From an uncultured Bacteroidota bacterium (GTDB lineage: Bacteria; Bacteroidota; Bacteroidia; Flavobacteriales; Flavobacteriaceae): DNA of 64,000 nt. How positions within the stretch are numbered: the first letter of the stretch is position 1; the number at the start of each line of letters is the position of its first letter. The DNA lies in the NCBI GenBank assembly GCA_902516925.1, contig CABYAF010000002.1:46824-110823 (forward strand), read 5' to 3'. The notes beneath the pieces are model-generated. The model saw only the letters and a list, made by a program, of their open reading frames with translations, searched no databases and had not been told where the DNA came from. Below, piece after piece: positions 20,960 through 52,433 of this stretch. A program made the translations under genes and the position numbers.

Positions 20960-21721
20960 TTATCTTATTGACTTTATAAATGAATCTATTGAATCTACAC
21001 CATTTTCATGAAGATTTTTGATAAATGCTGATCCAATTATTGCACCTTTTGAATACCCGATAGCGGCATCAAATGTCTCTTTATTTCCAACACCAAAACC
21101 AATAATTCTTGGTGTATCTAAGTTCATTTTCTCAATTCTTTCAAAATAATTAATTTGTTCTGTGCTAAAAGAATCCTTTGAACCAGTAATACTTGATGAA
21201 CTCACCATATAAATAAACCCATTAGATATAGAGTCAATCTTTCTAATTCTTCTATCTGATGTTTGAGGAGCTATTAAAAACATATTATAAAGCTGATTTT
21301 TTTCAAATACTGATTTATAATTTTCTTCATAATAATCAATTGGTAAGTCAGGTATTATTAATCCATCAATTCCAATTTCACTACATTTTTTACAAAAGGC
21401 CTCAACACCATATTGAAGCATAGGATTAAAATACCCCATAATAATTAATGGAATGGAGACTTTATCTCTTATCCTTTTTAATTGATCAAACAGTATATTA
21501 GTATTCATTCCATTTTTAATTGCAATAGTAGAGCTATCTTGAATTGTTGGTCCATCAGCTAGTGGATCACTAAATGGTAGGCCGATTTCAACCATATCAA
21601 CACCTGATTCCTGTAACTTAATAATAATATCTTTCGTATCACTTAAATTAGGGTATCCAGCTGTAAAGTATATGGACAATAACTTCCTATCCTCTTCTAA
21701 TTTCTTGTCTATTCTATTCAT
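20960..21721 (-). CDS. trpA: Tryptophan synthase alpha subunit
   Basis: YFTAGYPNLSDT, DMVEIGLPFSDPLADGPTIQ, IIGSAFIK. Confidence 0.97.
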   Translation of the reverse strand: MNRIDKKLEEDRKLLSIYFTAGYPNLSDTKDIIIKLQESGVDMVEIGLPFSDPLADGPTIQDSSTIAIKNGMNTNILFDQLKRIRDKVSIPLIIMGYFNPMLQYGVEAFCKKCSEIGIDGLIIPDLPIDYYEENYKSVFEKNQLYNMFLIAPQTSDRRIRKIDSISNGFIYMVSSSSITGSKDSFSTEQINYFERIEKMNLDTPRIIGFGVGNKETFDAAIGYSKGAIIGSAFIKNLHENGVDSIDSFIKSIR

Positions 21722-22902
21722 TATAAATTAAAATAATCAATGTATGTATTCAAATCCTTATCCCCTCTACCCGAGAAGTTCAAAACTATAATATCATTAG
21801 GTTTAAAATCTAGATATTTAAATGCAGCAAAAGCATGCGCAGTTTCTATTGCAGGTATAATTCCTTCAAGTTTTGAGACCTCAAGTCCTGCAAGCATTGC
21901 ATCACTATCTGTTATTGACATAAATTCTGCTCTTTTGCTTTCAAGTAAATGAGCATGAAGCGGACCTACTCCTGGATAATCAAGACCAGCTGAAATAGAA
22001 TAGGGTTCAACTATTTGTCCATCTTTAGTCTGCATTAATAGTGTTTTACTTCCATGAATAATACCAGTTTTTCCAAGAACTGATGTTGCAGCACTTTTAC
22101 CAGATTTAATACCTTCTCCAGCTGCCTCAACTGAAATAATTTTTACTTTTTCATCTTCTAAATAATGATAATATAAACCAGCAGCATTGCTTCCACCTCC
22201 AATATTAGCTATTAAATAATCAGGATATTCAGTTCCCTCTTTATCACGTAATTGAGACTTTATCTCTTCCGAAACTACAGATTGAAACTTAGCAACCATA
22301 TCAGGATAAGGATGTGGACCTACTACTGAACCAATTATGTAGTGAGTTGTTATAGGATTATTAATCCAATCCCTAATTGCTTCATTAGTCGCGTCTTTTA
22401 GTGTTTTGCTACCTGACTCAGCTGCAACTATTGATGCTCCTAACATTTTCATTCTAGCAACATTTGGAGCTTGTCTTTTGATATCAATTGCACCCATATA
22501 TATTACACACTCAATTCCTGCTAATGCACAAACTGTTGCAGTCGCTACTCCATGTTGACCAGCGCCTGTTTCAGCAATAATTCTTTTTTTTCCTAATCTT
22601 TTAGCGAGTAAAATTTGACCAACCGTGTTGTTTATTTTGTGTGCTCCAGTATGACACAAATCTTCTCTTTTGAAATAAATTTTACATTTATATTTCTCTG
22701 ACATTCTTTCAGCAAAATATAGTGGAGTAGGCCTTCCTACATAATCCTTTAAAAGATTATTATAATCCTTTTGAAAATTAGAATCATTAATAATCTCATT
22801 GTAATTTTTTTCTAATTCGTCTAGATTTGGAAATAGCATTTCAGGTACAAAAGCACCTCCGTAATTTCCATAAAATCCTTTTTTATCTACTGTATATTTC
22901 AT
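21721..22902 (-). CDS. trpB: Tryptophan synthase beta subunit
   Basis: GNYGGAFVPEMLFPNL, REDLCHTGAHKINNTVGQ, ANIGGGSNAAGLYYHYL. Confidence 0.98.
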   Translation of the reverse strand: MKYTVDKKGFYGNYGGAFVPEMLFPNLDELEKNYNEIINDSNFQKDYNNLLKDYVGRPTPLYFAERMSEKYKCKIYFKREDLCHTGAHKINNTVGQILLAKRLGKKRIIAETGAGQHGVATATVCALAGIECVIYMGAIDIKRQAPNVARMKMLGASIVAAESGSKTLKDATNEAIRDWINNPITTHYIIGSVVGPHPYPDMVAKFQSVVSEEIKSQLRDKEGTEYPDYLIANIGGGSNAAGLYYHYLEDEKVKIISVEAAGEGIKSGKSAATSVLGKTGIIHGSKTLLMQTKDGQIVEPYSISAGLDYPGVGPLHAHLLESKRAEFMSITDSDAMLAGLEVSKLEGIIPAIETAHAFAAFKYLDFKPNDIIVLNFSGRGDKDLNTYIDYFNL

Positions 22903-23518
22903 TTTTTATTGTTTCTATAAAAGTTTTTAATTCATCAATTTTCTTTAAATAGTTTTTATCCTCAAATTTACTATTAACATCAATACCATATAGAGGAAGA
23001 TCCATTTTAAAAAGCTCAATTAGTGATTCAATTGAATGGAGTCCTATTCCACCACTAATAAAAAATTCTTTTTTTAATTTATATTTTTTTAAATTTTCCC
23101 AATTGAACGATTTCCCTGTTCCACCAGGAAGTTCTGATTTTGAATCAAATAAAAATAAATCACAATAGTTTTCATAATTTTTTAAAACAGAAAAATCAAA
23201 ATCATCATCTATCCTGAAAGATTTAATTACTTGAGTTCCTCTATCTATAATATTTTTACAATACTGAGGAGACTCTTCTCCATGCAATTGAACACATGCT
23301 AAATTATGTTCATTGATTCTATTAAATACATCATCTATTTTAGAGTTAAAAAAAATACCTGTTTTTTTAATTTCTTTTTTTAGTTTTGGACTTGCATCTT
23401 TTAAATATCTGACGGATTTTTCCCAAAAGATATGACCAATATAATCTGGATTTAACTCCGCTACTTTATGGATATTTTTTTCGTTAAATAATCCGCAAAC
23501 TTTAAATTTCATTTTCAA
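22883..23518 (-). CDS. trpF: Phosphoribosylanthranilate isomerase
   Basis: KFKVCGLFNEKNIHKVAELNPDYIGHIF, VQLHGEESPQYC, GGTGKSFNW. Confidence 0.95.
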   Translation of the reverse strand: MKMKFKVCGLFNEKNIHKVAELNPDYIGHIFWEKSVRYLKDASPKLKKEIKKTGIFFNSKIDDVFNRINEHNLACVQLHGEESPQYCKNIIDRGTQVIKSFRIDDDFDFSVLKNYENYCDLFLFDSKSELPGGTGKSFNWENLKKYKLKKEFFISGGIGLHSIESLIELFKMDLPLYGIDVNSKFEDKNYLKKIDELKTFIETIKNEIYSR

Positions 23519-24293
23519 CCTTTTTTATAAAATTATAAGCTGAAATCATAGGATCGCTAGTTTTCATAAAATTTTCACCTATTAAAAATCCCTGATAACC
23601 AATTTCTCTAAGTCTTAATATTGATTCAACTTTGCTAATGCCACTTTCAGATATCTTAACAAATTGATCAGGAATTTTATCAAAGAGTTTTTCACTGTTC
23701 ATTATGTCAACTTCTAAAGTGTCAAGATCTCTATTATTGACTCCAATTATGTCAATATCATCACTTGATATTTTTTTCAATTCATCAAAAGAATGAATCT
23801 CAACTAATACCTCCAGATCTAAACTCTTTGCTAACGAACTTAATCTTGATATTTCTTCTGATTTCAGAATTGATGCAATAAGTAATATTGCATCAGATCC
23901 AATGGATTTTGCTTCAATTACTTGATATTCACTGACTATAAATTCTTTTCTAAGAATTGGTATATCCAAAATTTCTCTTGTTTCAATTATGTCACTAATG
24001 TCTCCATCAAAATATTTTTTGTTAGTTAAGATCGATACCCCAACAGCTCCCGCATTTTGGTATCCTTTGATAACATCTATAATACTTGTTTCATAATTAA
24101 TATTATTATTTGACGGTGATTTTCTTTTAAACTCACAAATTATTCCACTTGGACTATTTAAGATTGAATTTTTTAAAGAAATACATTGTCTTGAGAATAA
24201 ACTTCTTTTTTCTAGTAATGATACTGGAATTTTAGAGGATAAATTCTTTAACTCAATTTTTTTATCTTCAACAATCTTATCTAAAATTTTCAT
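23502..24293 (-). CDS. trpC: Indole-3-glycerol phosphate synthase
   Basis: ICEFKRKSPSNNNIN, GAVGVSILTNKKYFDG, ILRKEFIVSEYQ, IGVNNRDLDTLEVD. Confidence 0.97.
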   Translation of the reverse strand: MKILDKIVEDKKIELKNLSSKIPVSLLEKRSLFSRQCISLKNSILNSPSGIICEFKRKSPSNNNINYETSIIDVIKGYQNAGAVGVSILTNKKYFDGDISDIIETREILDIPILRKEFIVSEYQVIEAKSIGSDAILLIASILKSEEISRLSSLAKSLDLEVLVEIHSFDELKKISSDDIDIIGVNNRDLDTLEVDIMNSEKLFDKIPDQFVKISESGISKVESILRLREIGYQGFLIGENFMKTSDPMISAYNFIKKVENEI

Positions 24294-25297
24294 TTCATTA
24301 TCTCTTTTAATTTATTGAACGAATCTATTGCTTTACCAGATTTTAATGATTCTTTTGCAGCTTCAAATCCTTCTGAAATACTAATATTTTTTGAAGTTGA
24401 AATAGCAACACCTGCATTAGCGCATACAACATTATTTTGGCTTTCTGACCCAGTACCATTTAGAACATTCATAAATATTTTAGAGGATGAGGGGATATCA
24501 ACTCCACCTATGATTTCATCTGGTTTTATATTCTCTAGTCCAAATTCCTTTGATGAATAATTTTTTTCAGAGCTATTAGAATATATTTTTGTATCGTTTG
24601 TTAGTGAAATTTCATCATATCCATCCAATGAGTATATAATACTATATTTTTTATCAGTTTTTTGAAGTAGGTAATTATAAATTCTTGCTAGCTCTAGATT
24701 AAAAACACCAACAATTTGTTTCTTAGGCATTGAAGGGTTTACTAATGGACCTAGCATATTGAAGAAAGTTTTCATACCAAGCTCTTTTCTGATTGGTGCA
24801 ACATTTTTCATTGCAGGATGAAATAAGGGTGCATGAAGAAAACATATTCCAGATTTATCAATTGCTTTTTTTAAAACTTCATAATCATTAGTAAACTTTA
24901 TACCTAGGGATTCCAATACATTACTTGAGCCACATCCAGAGGAAACACCATAATTTCCATGTTTTGCGACCTTACATCCAGACCCAGCAGTCACAAAAGA
25001 AGCCAAAGTTGAAATATTAAAAGTATCCTTTCCGTCTCCTCCGGTTCCACATAAATCAATTGTATCAAATTCTTTTAAATCAACTTTTATACAAAGTTCA
25101 ATTAAGGCATCTTTAAAACCCTTGAGTTCTTGTAGAGTTATATTTCTCATCATATAAACTGTGAGAAAAGATGATATCTGGCTATTATTTAGCTCACCAT
25201 TAGAAATCTTAATTAGAATATCTCTTGATTCAACCTCACTCAGGGTTTTATATTTAATCAATCTATTTAGAATTTCCTTCATAGTGTTTTTGTCCAA
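24290..25297 (-). CDS. trpD: Anthranilate phosphoribosyltransferase
   Basis: DLCGTGGDGKDTFNISTLASFV, KHGNYGVSSGCGSSNVLE, GMKTFFNMLGPLVNP. Confidence 0.97.
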   Translation of the reverse strand: MDKNTMKEILNRLIKYKTLSEVESRDILIKISNGELNNSQISSFLTVYMMRNITLQELKGFKDALIELCIKVDLKEFDTIDLCGTGGDGKDTFNISTLASFVTAGSGCKVAKHGNYGVSSGCGSSNVLESLGIKFTNDYEVLKKAIDKSGICFLHAPLFHPAMKNVAPIRKELGMKTFFNMLGPLVNPSMPKKQIVGVFNLELARIYNYLLQKTDKKYSIIYSLDGYDEISLTNDTKIYSNSSEKNYSSKEFGLENIKPDEIIGGVDIPSSSKIFMNVLNGTGSESQNNVVCANAGVAISTSKNISISEGFEAAKESLKSGKAIDSFNKLKEIMK

Positions 25298-25845
25298 TTT
25301 TTAATTATGGTCTTTCCGTATGGAGTCAAAATTGACTCTGGATGAAACTGTACACCACGAACAGCATAGTTAATATGTCTCAATGACATAACTTGATTGT
25401 TTTCATCCTCAGATGTTATTAAAAGTTCTTCTGGTAATGGTTTTTTCACAATCCAAGAATGGTACCTTCCTACTTCAATGGATTCTGGAATATTATTAAA
25501 AATTTCATCATTTTTTTTACAATTAATTTTAGTTGCAACACCATGATAAACTTCTTCCATATTTTCAATCTTTCCACCAAAAACTTCAACAATAGCTTGC
25601 TGACCAAGGCAAACTCCTAATATATTTTTATATTTAAAATACTTTTTAATTACTTCTTTAGTCATTCCAGCTTCGTCAGGAATGCCTGGGCCTGGAGAAA
25701 TTAATATTCCATCATATTCTTTAATTTCATTTATATCGAACATATCATTTCTCTTGGTTACTACTTTACACCCCAGCTCCTCTAGATAGTGAGACAGATT
25801 ATAAGTAAATGAGTCATAATTATCTATTAAAAATATTTTTTTCAT
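25279..25845 (-). CDS. trpG: Anthranilate synthase component II (glutamine amidotransferase)
   Basis: IDNYDSFTYNLSHYLEELG, LISPGPGIPDEAG, GVCLGQQAIVEVFGG, VQFHPESILTPYG. Confidence 0.97.
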   Translation of the reverse strand: MKKIFLIDNYDSFTYNLSHYLEELGCKVVTKRNDMFDINEIKEYDGILISPGPGIPDEAGMTKEVIKKYFKYKNILGVCLGQQAIVEVFGGKIENMEEVYHGVATKINCKKNDEIFNNIPESIEVGRYHSWIVKKPLPEELLITSEDENNQVMSLRHINYAVRGVQFHPESILTPYGKTIIKNWTKTL

Positions 25846-27245
25846 TTTATGTTTTCAGCATTTTTTAGAGCATGATCTAATGCTCCTAATTTATTATACA
25901 CTTCTTGAAGTTCATCTTGAGGCTTAGATTTTATGACTATACCAGCTCCTGCTTGATAGCTTAGTTCATTATTTTTACTAAAAAAAGATCTAATGATAAT
26001 TGCATGGTTAAAATTTCCTTTGAAGTCCATATATCCAATGGCTCCACCATAAAAATTTCTATTTATTTTTTCATACTTTTCAATTAATGTTAAAGCTTTG
26101 TGTTTTGGAGCTCCTGAAAGTGTTCCTGCTGGAAATGTATCCATTACAACTTGAAAAATTTTGGATGTATCTTTTAAATTGGCAGTAACCTTTGACACTA
26201 AATGAATTACATGAGAGAAAAATTGAATTTCTCTGTTTTTCTCAACTTTTACATCACTACCATTTCTACTTAAGTCATTTCTTGCTAGATCTACCAACAT
26301 TATATGCTCAGAGTTTTCTTTTGGGTCCACAGACAATTCCTTTGCTCTTTCTTCATCTCTCTTGTCATCACCAGATCTTTTAAATGTTCCAGCAATTGGA
26401 TGAATTTCTGCTTTTCCATTATTAATTATTATCTGAGCCTCAGGGGAGCTGCCAAAAATCTTAAAATTTCCATAATCAAAGAAAAATAAATAGGGTGAGG
26501 GGTTAATAGACCTTAAAGATCTGTATACATTGAACTCATCACCCTCAAATTTTTGATTAAACCTTCTTGACAAGACAAGCTGAAAGACATCACCTCTTTT
26601 GCAATGCTCTTTTGCTTTTGCTACATATTCTAAAAATTCTTCATCACTAATATTAGATGTTTTTTCACCTATATTTTTATAATTAAATGTTGAATAGCTC
26701 TTAGAATTAATTATATCATCAACTTCTTTTATATTATTTGAATCATCATGAGAATTACAAAAAATATGTGCTTCATGATTAAATAGACTAATTGCAATTA
26801 TATTTTGGTAAAATCCATAATAAATATCAGGAATATCAAAATCACTTTTTTTAGAGCTAAAATTGATATCCTCTTGATATTTAACTGATTCATGTGACAT
26901 GTAACCAAACAATCCATTTGTAATAAACTTTGAATTAGTCTTCTCAGTATCAAAACTGTCTAAGTAGTTGTTTAAGTAATATGTAATACTTTTATCAGCA
27001 TCCATATTGATAGTATCAACTTTACATCCAGGTAGTTTTTGATTTAAAACATGATCTTTAACCTCAAACAATCCAGTTTGATTAAAACATATAAATGAAT
27101 AATTATTACCTGCTTGCATATAATCACTACTTTCCAAGAGTATACTATTTGGAAACCTATCTCTAATCTTGAGGTAAACTTCAACAGGAGTTATAGTATC
27201 AGCTATAATTTTTTTAGAATATGTATTTATTTTTATTGTTTTCAT
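25842..27245 (-). CDS. trpE: Anthranilate synthase component I
   Basis: 467 aa chorismate-binding enzyme; GDVFQLVLSRRF, HPIAGTFKRSGDDKRDEE, GAGIVIKSKPQDE; first gene of trpEGDCFBA. Confidence 0.96.
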   Translation of the reverse strand: MKTIKINTYSKKIIADTITPVEVYLKIRDRFPNSILLESSDYMQAGNNYSFICFNQTGLFEVKDHVLNQKLPGCKVDTINMDADKSITYYLNNYLDSFDTEKTNSKFITNGLFGYMSHESVKYQEDINFSSKKSDFDIPDIYYGFYQNIIAISLFNHEAHIFCNSHDDSNNIKEVDDIINSKSYSTFNYKNIGEKTSNISDEEFLEYVAKAKEHCKRGDVFQLVLSRRFNQKFEGDEFNVYRSLRSINPSPYLFFFDYGNFKIFGSSPEAQIIINNGKAEIHPIAGTFKRSGDDKRDEERAKELSVDPKENSEHIMLVDLARNDLSRNGSDVKVEKNREIQFFSHVIHLVSKVTANLKDTSKIFQVVMDTFPAGTLSGAPKHKALTLIEKYEKINRNFYGGAIGYMDFKGNFNHAIIIRSFFSKNNELSYQAGAGIVIKSKPQDELQEVYNKLGALDHALKNAENIK

Positions 27246-27248
27246 AGC

Positions 27249-27276
27249 AAAAAAAAAGCCTGTCGTGAGACAAGCT
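27249..27276 (-). terminator. Intrinsic terminator / trp attenuator hairpin
   Basis: Minus strand AGCTTGTC-TCAC-GACAGGCT followed by TTTTTTTTT: 8-bp stem with one GU, 4-nt loop, 9 T, ending 3 nt before the trpE ATG. Confidence 0.9.
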
Positions 27277-27304
27277 ATTATACAACAGTTTTATTCACGA
27301 TTAA

Positions 27305-27349
27305 TCAGATTTCGTAATTCCACCACCAGTATTTTTTAATTAATTTCAT
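27305..27349 (-). CDS. trpL: trp operon leader peptide MKLIKKYWWWNYEI*
   Basis: Minus-strand ATGAAATTAATTAAAAAATACTGGTGGTGGAATTACGAAATCTGA: three tandem TGG codons in 14, located between an upstream ORF stop and an attenuator hairpin before trpE. Confidence 0.9.
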   Translation of the reverse strand: MKLIKKYWWWNYEI

Positions 27350-27576
27350 TAGGCAAATATAAAATAAAAACAAAATAAACCTAAAGAAACAAAACCTATA
27401 ATTATAAATATTGCAGTAGATATGAGTTTTAGATGCTTTTTTGTACCCTCAGCCATGTCCATAGTTTCAAGCTGAGGCTCATTAACATCCTTCAGTTCAT
27501 TTATAGATAGAAAAGTTGCTGCAACAACTGCACCAGTACAAACTAAACCCATTATAAAAATAAAAGTATCTCCCAT
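27349..27576 (-). CDS. Small two-TM protein of unknown function
   Basis: 75 aa; two hydrophobic segments; stop codon overlaps the trpL ATG (TAATG). Confidence 0.65.
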   Translation of the reverse strand: MGDTFIFIMGLVCTGAVVAATFLSINELKDVNEPQLETMDMAEGTKKHLKLISTAIFIIIGFVSLGLFCFYFIFA

Positions 27577-27577
27577 T

Positions 27578-27772
27578 TTATTTGTTTAACATCTGTTTAA
27601 AGTAACAACCAAAAGAAAGAATTGAGGGAACCCATAACCCAACAAATAGTCCTTCATCTTTATAACCATAAAACCATAAAGAAACTGATAAGACAAAAGA
27701 GATAAATGCAGCACCAATTAAAAAGATATCAGATTTTTGAAAATATTTCATAGATAGTATATTTAAGCCCAA
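27578..27772 (-). CDS. Small two-TM protein of unknown function
   Basis: 64 aa; MKYFQKSDIFLIGAAFISFVLSVSLWFYGYKDEGLFVGLWVPSILSFG; 1 nt upstream of the next ORF. Confidence 0.6.
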   Translation of the reverse strand: MGLNILSMKYFQKSDIFLIGAAFISFVLSVSLWFYGYKDEGLFVGLWVPSILSFGCYFKQMLNK

Positions 27773-31012: not shown

Positions 31013-31086
31013 GCCGATGTAGCTCAGCTGGCTAGAGCAGCTGATTTGTAATCAGCAGGTCGTGGGTTCGAGTCCCTCCATCGGCT
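31013..31086 (+). tRNA. tRNA-Thr (anticodon TGT)
   Basis: GCCGATG...CATCGGC acceptor pairing; loop TTTGTAA; GGTTCGAGTCC T-arm. Confidence 0.95.
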
Positions 31087-31104
31087 CTTTGAAATTTTGA
31101 AACT

Positions 31105-31186
31105 GGGGAGATACTCAAGCGGTCAACGAGAGCAGTCTGTAAAACTGTTGGCTACGCCTTCGTAGGTTCGAATCCTGCTCTCCCCA
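31105..31186 (+). tRNA. tRNA-Tyr (anticodon GTA)
   Basis: GGGGAGA...TCTCCCC acceptor pairing; loop CTGTAAA; long variable arm. Confidence 0.95.
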
Positions 31187-31195
31187 CATCTTAAT

Positions 31196-31268
31196 GCGGG
31201 AGTAGCTCAGTTGGTAGAGCGTCAGCCTTCCAAGCTGAATGTCGCGAGTTCGACCCTCGTCTCCCGCT
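31196..31268 (+). tRNA. tRNA-Gly (anticodon TCC)
   Basis: GCGGGAG...CTCCCGC acceptor pairing; loop CTTCCAA. Confidence 0.95.
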
Positions 31269-31279
31269 CAACTTTTTCT

Positions 31280-31351
31280 GCCGATATAGCTCAGGGGTAG
31301 AGCGTTTCCTTGGTAAGGAAGAGGTCACGAGTTCAAATCTCGTTATTGGCT
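31280..31351 (+). tRNA. tRNA-Thr (anticodon GGT)
   Basis: GCCGATA...TATTGGC acceptor pairing; loop TTGGTAA. Confidence 0.94.
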
Positions 31352-52360: not shown

Positions 52361-52433
52361 ACGGGTTTAGCTCAGTTGGTAGAGCACTGGTCTCCAAAAC
52401 CAGGTGTCGGGAGTTCGAGTCTCTCAACCCGTG
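52361..52433 (+). tRNA. tRNA-Trp (anticodon CCA)
   Basis: ACGGGTT...AACCCGT acceptor pairing; loop CTCCAAA; between tuf and secE as usual for the phylum. Confidence 0.95.

Follow-up and report, generated by a model that had tools for sequence, protein, structure and literature searches.

The leader of the trp operon studied here very probably acts as a ribosome-mediated transcription attenuator homologous to the Bacteroid-trp leaders (RF01692). In the window, by which we mean the whole 64,000-nt stretch of DNA that was analyzed, taken from a partial assembly (0.99 Mb, 63% complete), a leader ORF and an intrinsic terminator lie directly upstream of the trpEGDCFBA operon, all on the minus strand. 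The leader ORF (27349..27305) has 14 codons, encodes MKLIKKYWWWNYEI* and ends with a TGA stop codon at 27307-27305; its three tandem Trp codons (TGG, 27328-27320) would constitute the sensing site. The terminator (27249..27276) consists of AGCTTGTC-TCAC-GACAGGCT, an 8-bp hairpin with a 4-nt loop at 27276-27257 (about −10.3 kcal/mol), followed by a U-run that extends to 27249. The ATG of trpE (25842..27245), the first gene of the operon, is located at 27245, 3 nt past the end of the U-run. Pfam identified trpG, trpD, trpC, trpF, trpB and trpA downstream (20960..25845), and a ubiE/COQ5-type methyltransferase gene comes next after trpA. These observations confirm the Trp leader and the terminator before trpE, and the sequences and coordinates given in the initial annotation for the leader ORF, the TGG codons, segments 1, 2 and 3 and the terminator were verified. 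The hairpin and U-run of its terminator also stand, although one of the nine T's counted as U9 is stem-paired as well.

The WWW run is unique to the leader ORF among the 858 short ORFs (6-40 aa) of the window. The TGG-run 9-mer TGGTGGTGG has three matches in the window (0.11 expected), of which the leader is the only one within a short ORF, and 16 in the whole genome, so that the 9-mer alone is weak evidence and its context is decisive. A short ATG-started ORF containing Trp-Trp was found upstream of trpE in 66 of the 76 relatives for which 150 nt or more of sequence preceding this gene was available, compared with 0.33% of dinucleotide shuffles. The closest TrpE relatives (93-94% identical) come from uncultured Bacteroidetes/Flavobacteriaceae, and the set reaches Cyclobacteriaceae, Marinoscillum, Runella and Bacteroidales, i.e. 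across Bacteroidota. One congener (L006/L065) has Trp-Trp-Cys (TGG TGG TGT) instead of Trp-Trp-Trp upstream of trpE, and another (L002/L062) has two Trp codons only, which suggests that two Trp codons could be enough. In two genomes from another family of the order, two tandem Trp attenuator leaders precede trpE (L171, G039:C26:75-213 and on; L172, G054:C169:4762-5045); those of L172 read MITINKIWWWQSKL then MINSKLNNWWWPV..., each with its own terminator-like hairpin.

A covariance model, R1, built (alignment A2) from 30 leaders that all come from outside the genus of the window, recovered the leader at 62.4 bits (E 7.7e-11), the next best match in the window scoring 13.7. The leader is also the top match of R1 on its own genome (E 1.2e-9), and R1 matches were detected at 55-68 bits in 20 other congener genomes. 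Ten regions with weaker R1 and RF01692 matches elsewhere in the genomes were inspected for other Trp attenuators, and none of them has a Trp leader: nine are plain gene-end terminators (including G000:C18:10056), and G012:C2:787 lies inside a coding frame.

The single-sequence fold of the window leader is unremarkable and uninformative (z = −0.94), hence support for the structure comes from conservation. Segment 2 (TCGTGA, 27300-27295) and the adjoining AUAA, a potential partner of UUGU in the terminator 5′ arm, occupy 27291..27300 on the minus strand. Segment 3 (TCACGA, 27263..27268, minus strand) comprises the terminator loop together with 2 nt from the 3′ arm; its helix with segment 2 amounts to −8.5 kcal/mol in the window. 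Alignment A1, which comprises 58 Flavobacteriaceae leaders, revealed 93.9% of cells paired and double changes at three of six pairs for 2:3, and 100% of cells paired and double changes at five of eight pairs for the terminator; both covariation scores exceeded those of all 500 shuffles. Matching segment 2/3 pairs from different leaders include TCGTGA/TCACGA, CTGTGAACA/TGTTCGCAG, GCTGAACAG/CTGTTCAGC and ACCGTGAG/CTCACGGT. In a wider set with 35 distinct loops, segment 2 fitted its own loop better than those of others (mean of 13.7 vs 11.0, p = 5e-5 with permuted partners), helix p-values being upper claims of independence and not exact probabilities because the sequences share ancestry. Alignment of the upstream regions of relatives, as suggested in the initial annotation, thus shows both a retained Trp-Trp ORF and compensatory changes in 2:3 and in the terminator.

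Covariation of both helices, together with their thermodynamic competition, indicates that the antiterminator and the terminator are mutually exclusive. The 2:3 helix earlier proposed to exclude the terminator is supported by covariation, but it overlaps no more of the terminator than its loop and 2 nt from the 3′ arm. An extended antiterminator occupying the terminator 5′ arm would account for the exclusion more readily than the 6-bp 2:3 helix by itself. In the window and its congeners, such a fold pairs UCGUGAAUAA with UUGUC-UCACGA around a small CUGUU/AAUAG hairpin, with interior fold z values of about −1.0 in the genus and −1.2 in others. Phylum-wide pairing between the region following segment 2 and the terminator 5′ arm was rejected (permutation p of 0.036 for all arms and 0.36 for distinct arms), and this pairing is a suggestion at the genus level only. 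The second antiterminator put forward initially, CTGTTGT:ACGACAG, is not conserved, being the best helix in just 2 of 18 congeners (the window and its relative L014).

In 54 of 56 leaders, 17-21 nt separate the last Trp codon from segment 2; in 55 of 56, the stop codon is positioned ahead of segment 2 or within it (−10 to +11 nt). In the window, the Trp codons end about 19 nt short of segment 2 and the stop codon is 4 nt before it. With the front edge of the ribosome about 15 nt from the P-site codon, as assumed here, a ribosome at the third Trp codon would leave segment 2 exposed, and a ribosome at the stop codon would cover it. The fixed Trp-to-segment-2 distance is what a ribosome “ruler” would predict. 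In fold simulations with the ribosome placed on the Trp codons and an RNA extending no further than segment 3, 2:3 formed with a probability of 0.95; for a ribosome placed on the stop codon, the probability of the terminator was 0.98. When a stalled ribosome was combined with the full-length RNA, the terminator prevailed at equilibrium (0.72 vs 0.26 for 2:3), which implies that the switch would have to be kinetic, i.e. co-transcriptional.

Three lines of evidence thus support the ribosome-mediated trp attenuator proposed in the initial annotation: the WW/WWW leader is conserved, both 2:3 and the terminator covary, and the Trp-to-segment-2 spacing is fixed. Like other leader-peptide attenuators, it combines a short ORF with tandem Trp codons and a mutually exclusive pair of antiterminator and intrinsic terminator. 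From these features we infer where the ribosome stalls, in which direction the operon responds, which helix wins in the cell and where transcription starts. Transcription would begin at or beside the leader ATG, with the ribosome trailing the polymerase. Under a shortage of charged tRNA-Trp, the ribosome would stall on UGG-UGG-UGG, leaving segment 2 (UCGUGA) free to pair with the emerging segment 3 (UCACGA), while AUAA:UUGU pairing probably also occupies the terminator 5′ arm during antitermination; once the antiterminator is formed, the trp genes would be transcribed. When Trp is plentiful, the ribosome would reach the stop codon and cover segment 2, and the terminator would form just before trpE.

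A variant of this explanation, in which an E. coli-like attenuator has three states and relies on the 1:2 hairpin as main protector and pause signal, appears unlikely. Segment 1 (TTACGA, 27312..27317, minus strand) does pair with TCGTGA over 6 bp with one GU, as first described, and, within the genus, per-sequence 1:2 complementarity modestly exceeds that of shuffles (Fisher p 1.6e-7, for sequences that are not independent). However, 1:2 is a weak helix in the window (−2.5 kcal/mol), is weaker than 2:3 in 54 of 56 leaders and displays no covariation on the leader alignment, partly because segment 1 shifts position, which is not conserved in the family; it can hardly be the strong, conserved element envisaged at first. 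Segment 1 is separated from the last Trp codon by 2 intervening nt, not 3, and leaders outside the genus exhibit no strong position-specific signal for a pause motif after segment 2. Masking of segment 2 by a ribosome at the stop codon is thus a likelier cause of termination under Trp-replete conditions than segment 1. Given the weakness of 1:2, untranslated RNA is predicted to read through, unlike in E. coli.

A predicted −7 box, TATATTTG (27354..27361, minus strand), corresponding to the TAnnTTTG element of the sigma-A of Bacteroidota, falls within the 3′ end of the upstream ORF. In Flavobacterium, this box is found at positions −12 to −5 relative to the transcription start site (PMC9723704, PMC6847099). 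The box-to-ATG spacing is 4 nt in the window; with the G at −5 following the Flavobacterium rule, position +1 would fall on the A of the leader ATG, and the leader ORF is predicted to be leaderless. In 58 of 69 leaders, the 60 nt that precede the leader ATG contain TAnnTTTG (shuffled expectation of about 7), with a spacing of exactly 4 nt in 25 and of 5 nt in 14 (39 of the 58 boxed leaders), and many leaders are accordingly predicted to be leaderless. Another group, close in sequence to Flavobacterium, has a spacing of 15-19 nt. A leaderless start would be unusual for Flavobacterium, leaderless transcripts amounting to 5.5% of mRNAs in F. psychrophilum (PMC9723704). We tentatively entertain, as a generalization that may well fail, a leaderless (ATG at +1 or +2), two-state form of the Bacteroid-trp attenuator for many marine Flavobacteriaceae: as there is no strong 1:2 hairpin, only the ribosome, kept at a constant 17-21 nt between Trp codon and antiterminator, would permit termination, and the untranslated leader would read through.

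The upstream ORF (27576..27349) is small and membrane-protein-like; its last codons contain the box and its TAA stop shares 1 nt with the leader ATG, so that read-in from upstream is possible as well. It is the first of two small ORFs preceding the leader (27349-27772, minus strand; 75 and 64 aa, with hydrophobic stretches), it matches no Pfam family, and most congeners show a similar gene end ahead of trpE. The window also contains a cluster of four tRNA genes at 31013-31351 on the plus strand (RF00005) and a fifth tRNA gene at 52361-52433.

Since the upstream ORF ends exactly where the leader starts, and terminators between transcription units are ordinary, the hairpin could be the terminator of the small membrane-protein genes, or a plain constitutive one, with the WWW ORF being incidental. 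This reading is highly improbable given that WW ORFs precede trpE in most relatives despite different upstream sequences outside the genus, and that 2:3 covariation and a fixed Trp-to-segment-2 spacing would be meaningless for a plain terminator. Sensing of Trp without the ribosome, with this terminator controlled by a TRAP-like RNA-binding protein, a T-box or an aptamer, is even more remote: a terminator/antiterminator pair by itself suits any sensor, but no T-box or riboswitch was found above the Rfam threshold in the window, and the conserved features are Trp codons and a ribosome-scale spacing rather than an aptamer.

The ribosome-mediated attenuator favored here belongs to a kind already known in Bacteroidota. 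The initial annotation considered such architecture to be sparsely documented in this phylum; RF01692 has in fact covered Bacteroid-trp leaders since 2010 (Weinberg et al. 2010, PMC2864571), and hints that leader peptides attenuate amino-acid operons are reported in a transcriptome study of Flavobacterium. The window leader scores 19.9 bits against RF01692, below the gathering cut-off of 49 and with an alignment out of register at the 3′ end. Congeners score 24-36 bits at the corresponding site, and genomes of the same family reach up to 64.5, beside trpE; the cut-off is exceeded in 7 of 60 relatives and by no congeneric leader. As RF01692 leaders do, the window leader occurs in Bacteroidota immediately upstream of trp biosynthesis genes, here trpE, and combines an AUG-started leader with Trp codons (UGGUGGUGG) and a terminator 5′ arm of AAGGCUUGUC. 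Its match to R1, trained outside the genus on leaders that include the RF01692-passing L020 and L021, identifies it as a divergent homologue missed by RF01692. The RF01692 model probably under-calls the family. Its structure line describes one long hairpin in which the Trp codons take part, and goes no further than the terminator 5′ arm; the model lacks the terminator 3′ arm, segment 3 and the 2:3 antiterminator, and the helices analyzed above extend it. Other weak Rfam matches of the leader (RprA, Ysr49, CyaR and others) all fall below their cut-offs, and the aligned parts inspected are mostly the terminator hairpin.

The enterobacterial attenuator (RF00513, Trp_leader; 15.9 bits for the window against a cut-off of 41) resembles the window leader by its short Trp-rich leader ORF, its alternative hairpins and its intrinsic terminator before trpE, whereas the window differs by a weak 1:2, an antiterminator that pairs with the terminator loop and a predicted leaderless start. 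The Trp attenuator trpL of Sinorhizobium meliloti, whose RNA begins with the leader ATG (PMC7298713), belongs to a different phylum, and the likeness lies in the leaderless start, predicted here from the −7 box alone. Our results support this mode of operon control in uncultured marine flavobacteria with small genomes, the leaders of which are uncalled by the curated Rfam model. The covariation-supported antiterminator and terminator and the ribosome-spacing rule, which are absent from the Rfam structure, would aid leader annotation. Compared with known systems, the window copy is an overlooked, divergent member of an established kind; the parts that may be new are an antiterminator supported by covariation, the spacing rule, and a two-state form with a predicted leaderless start.
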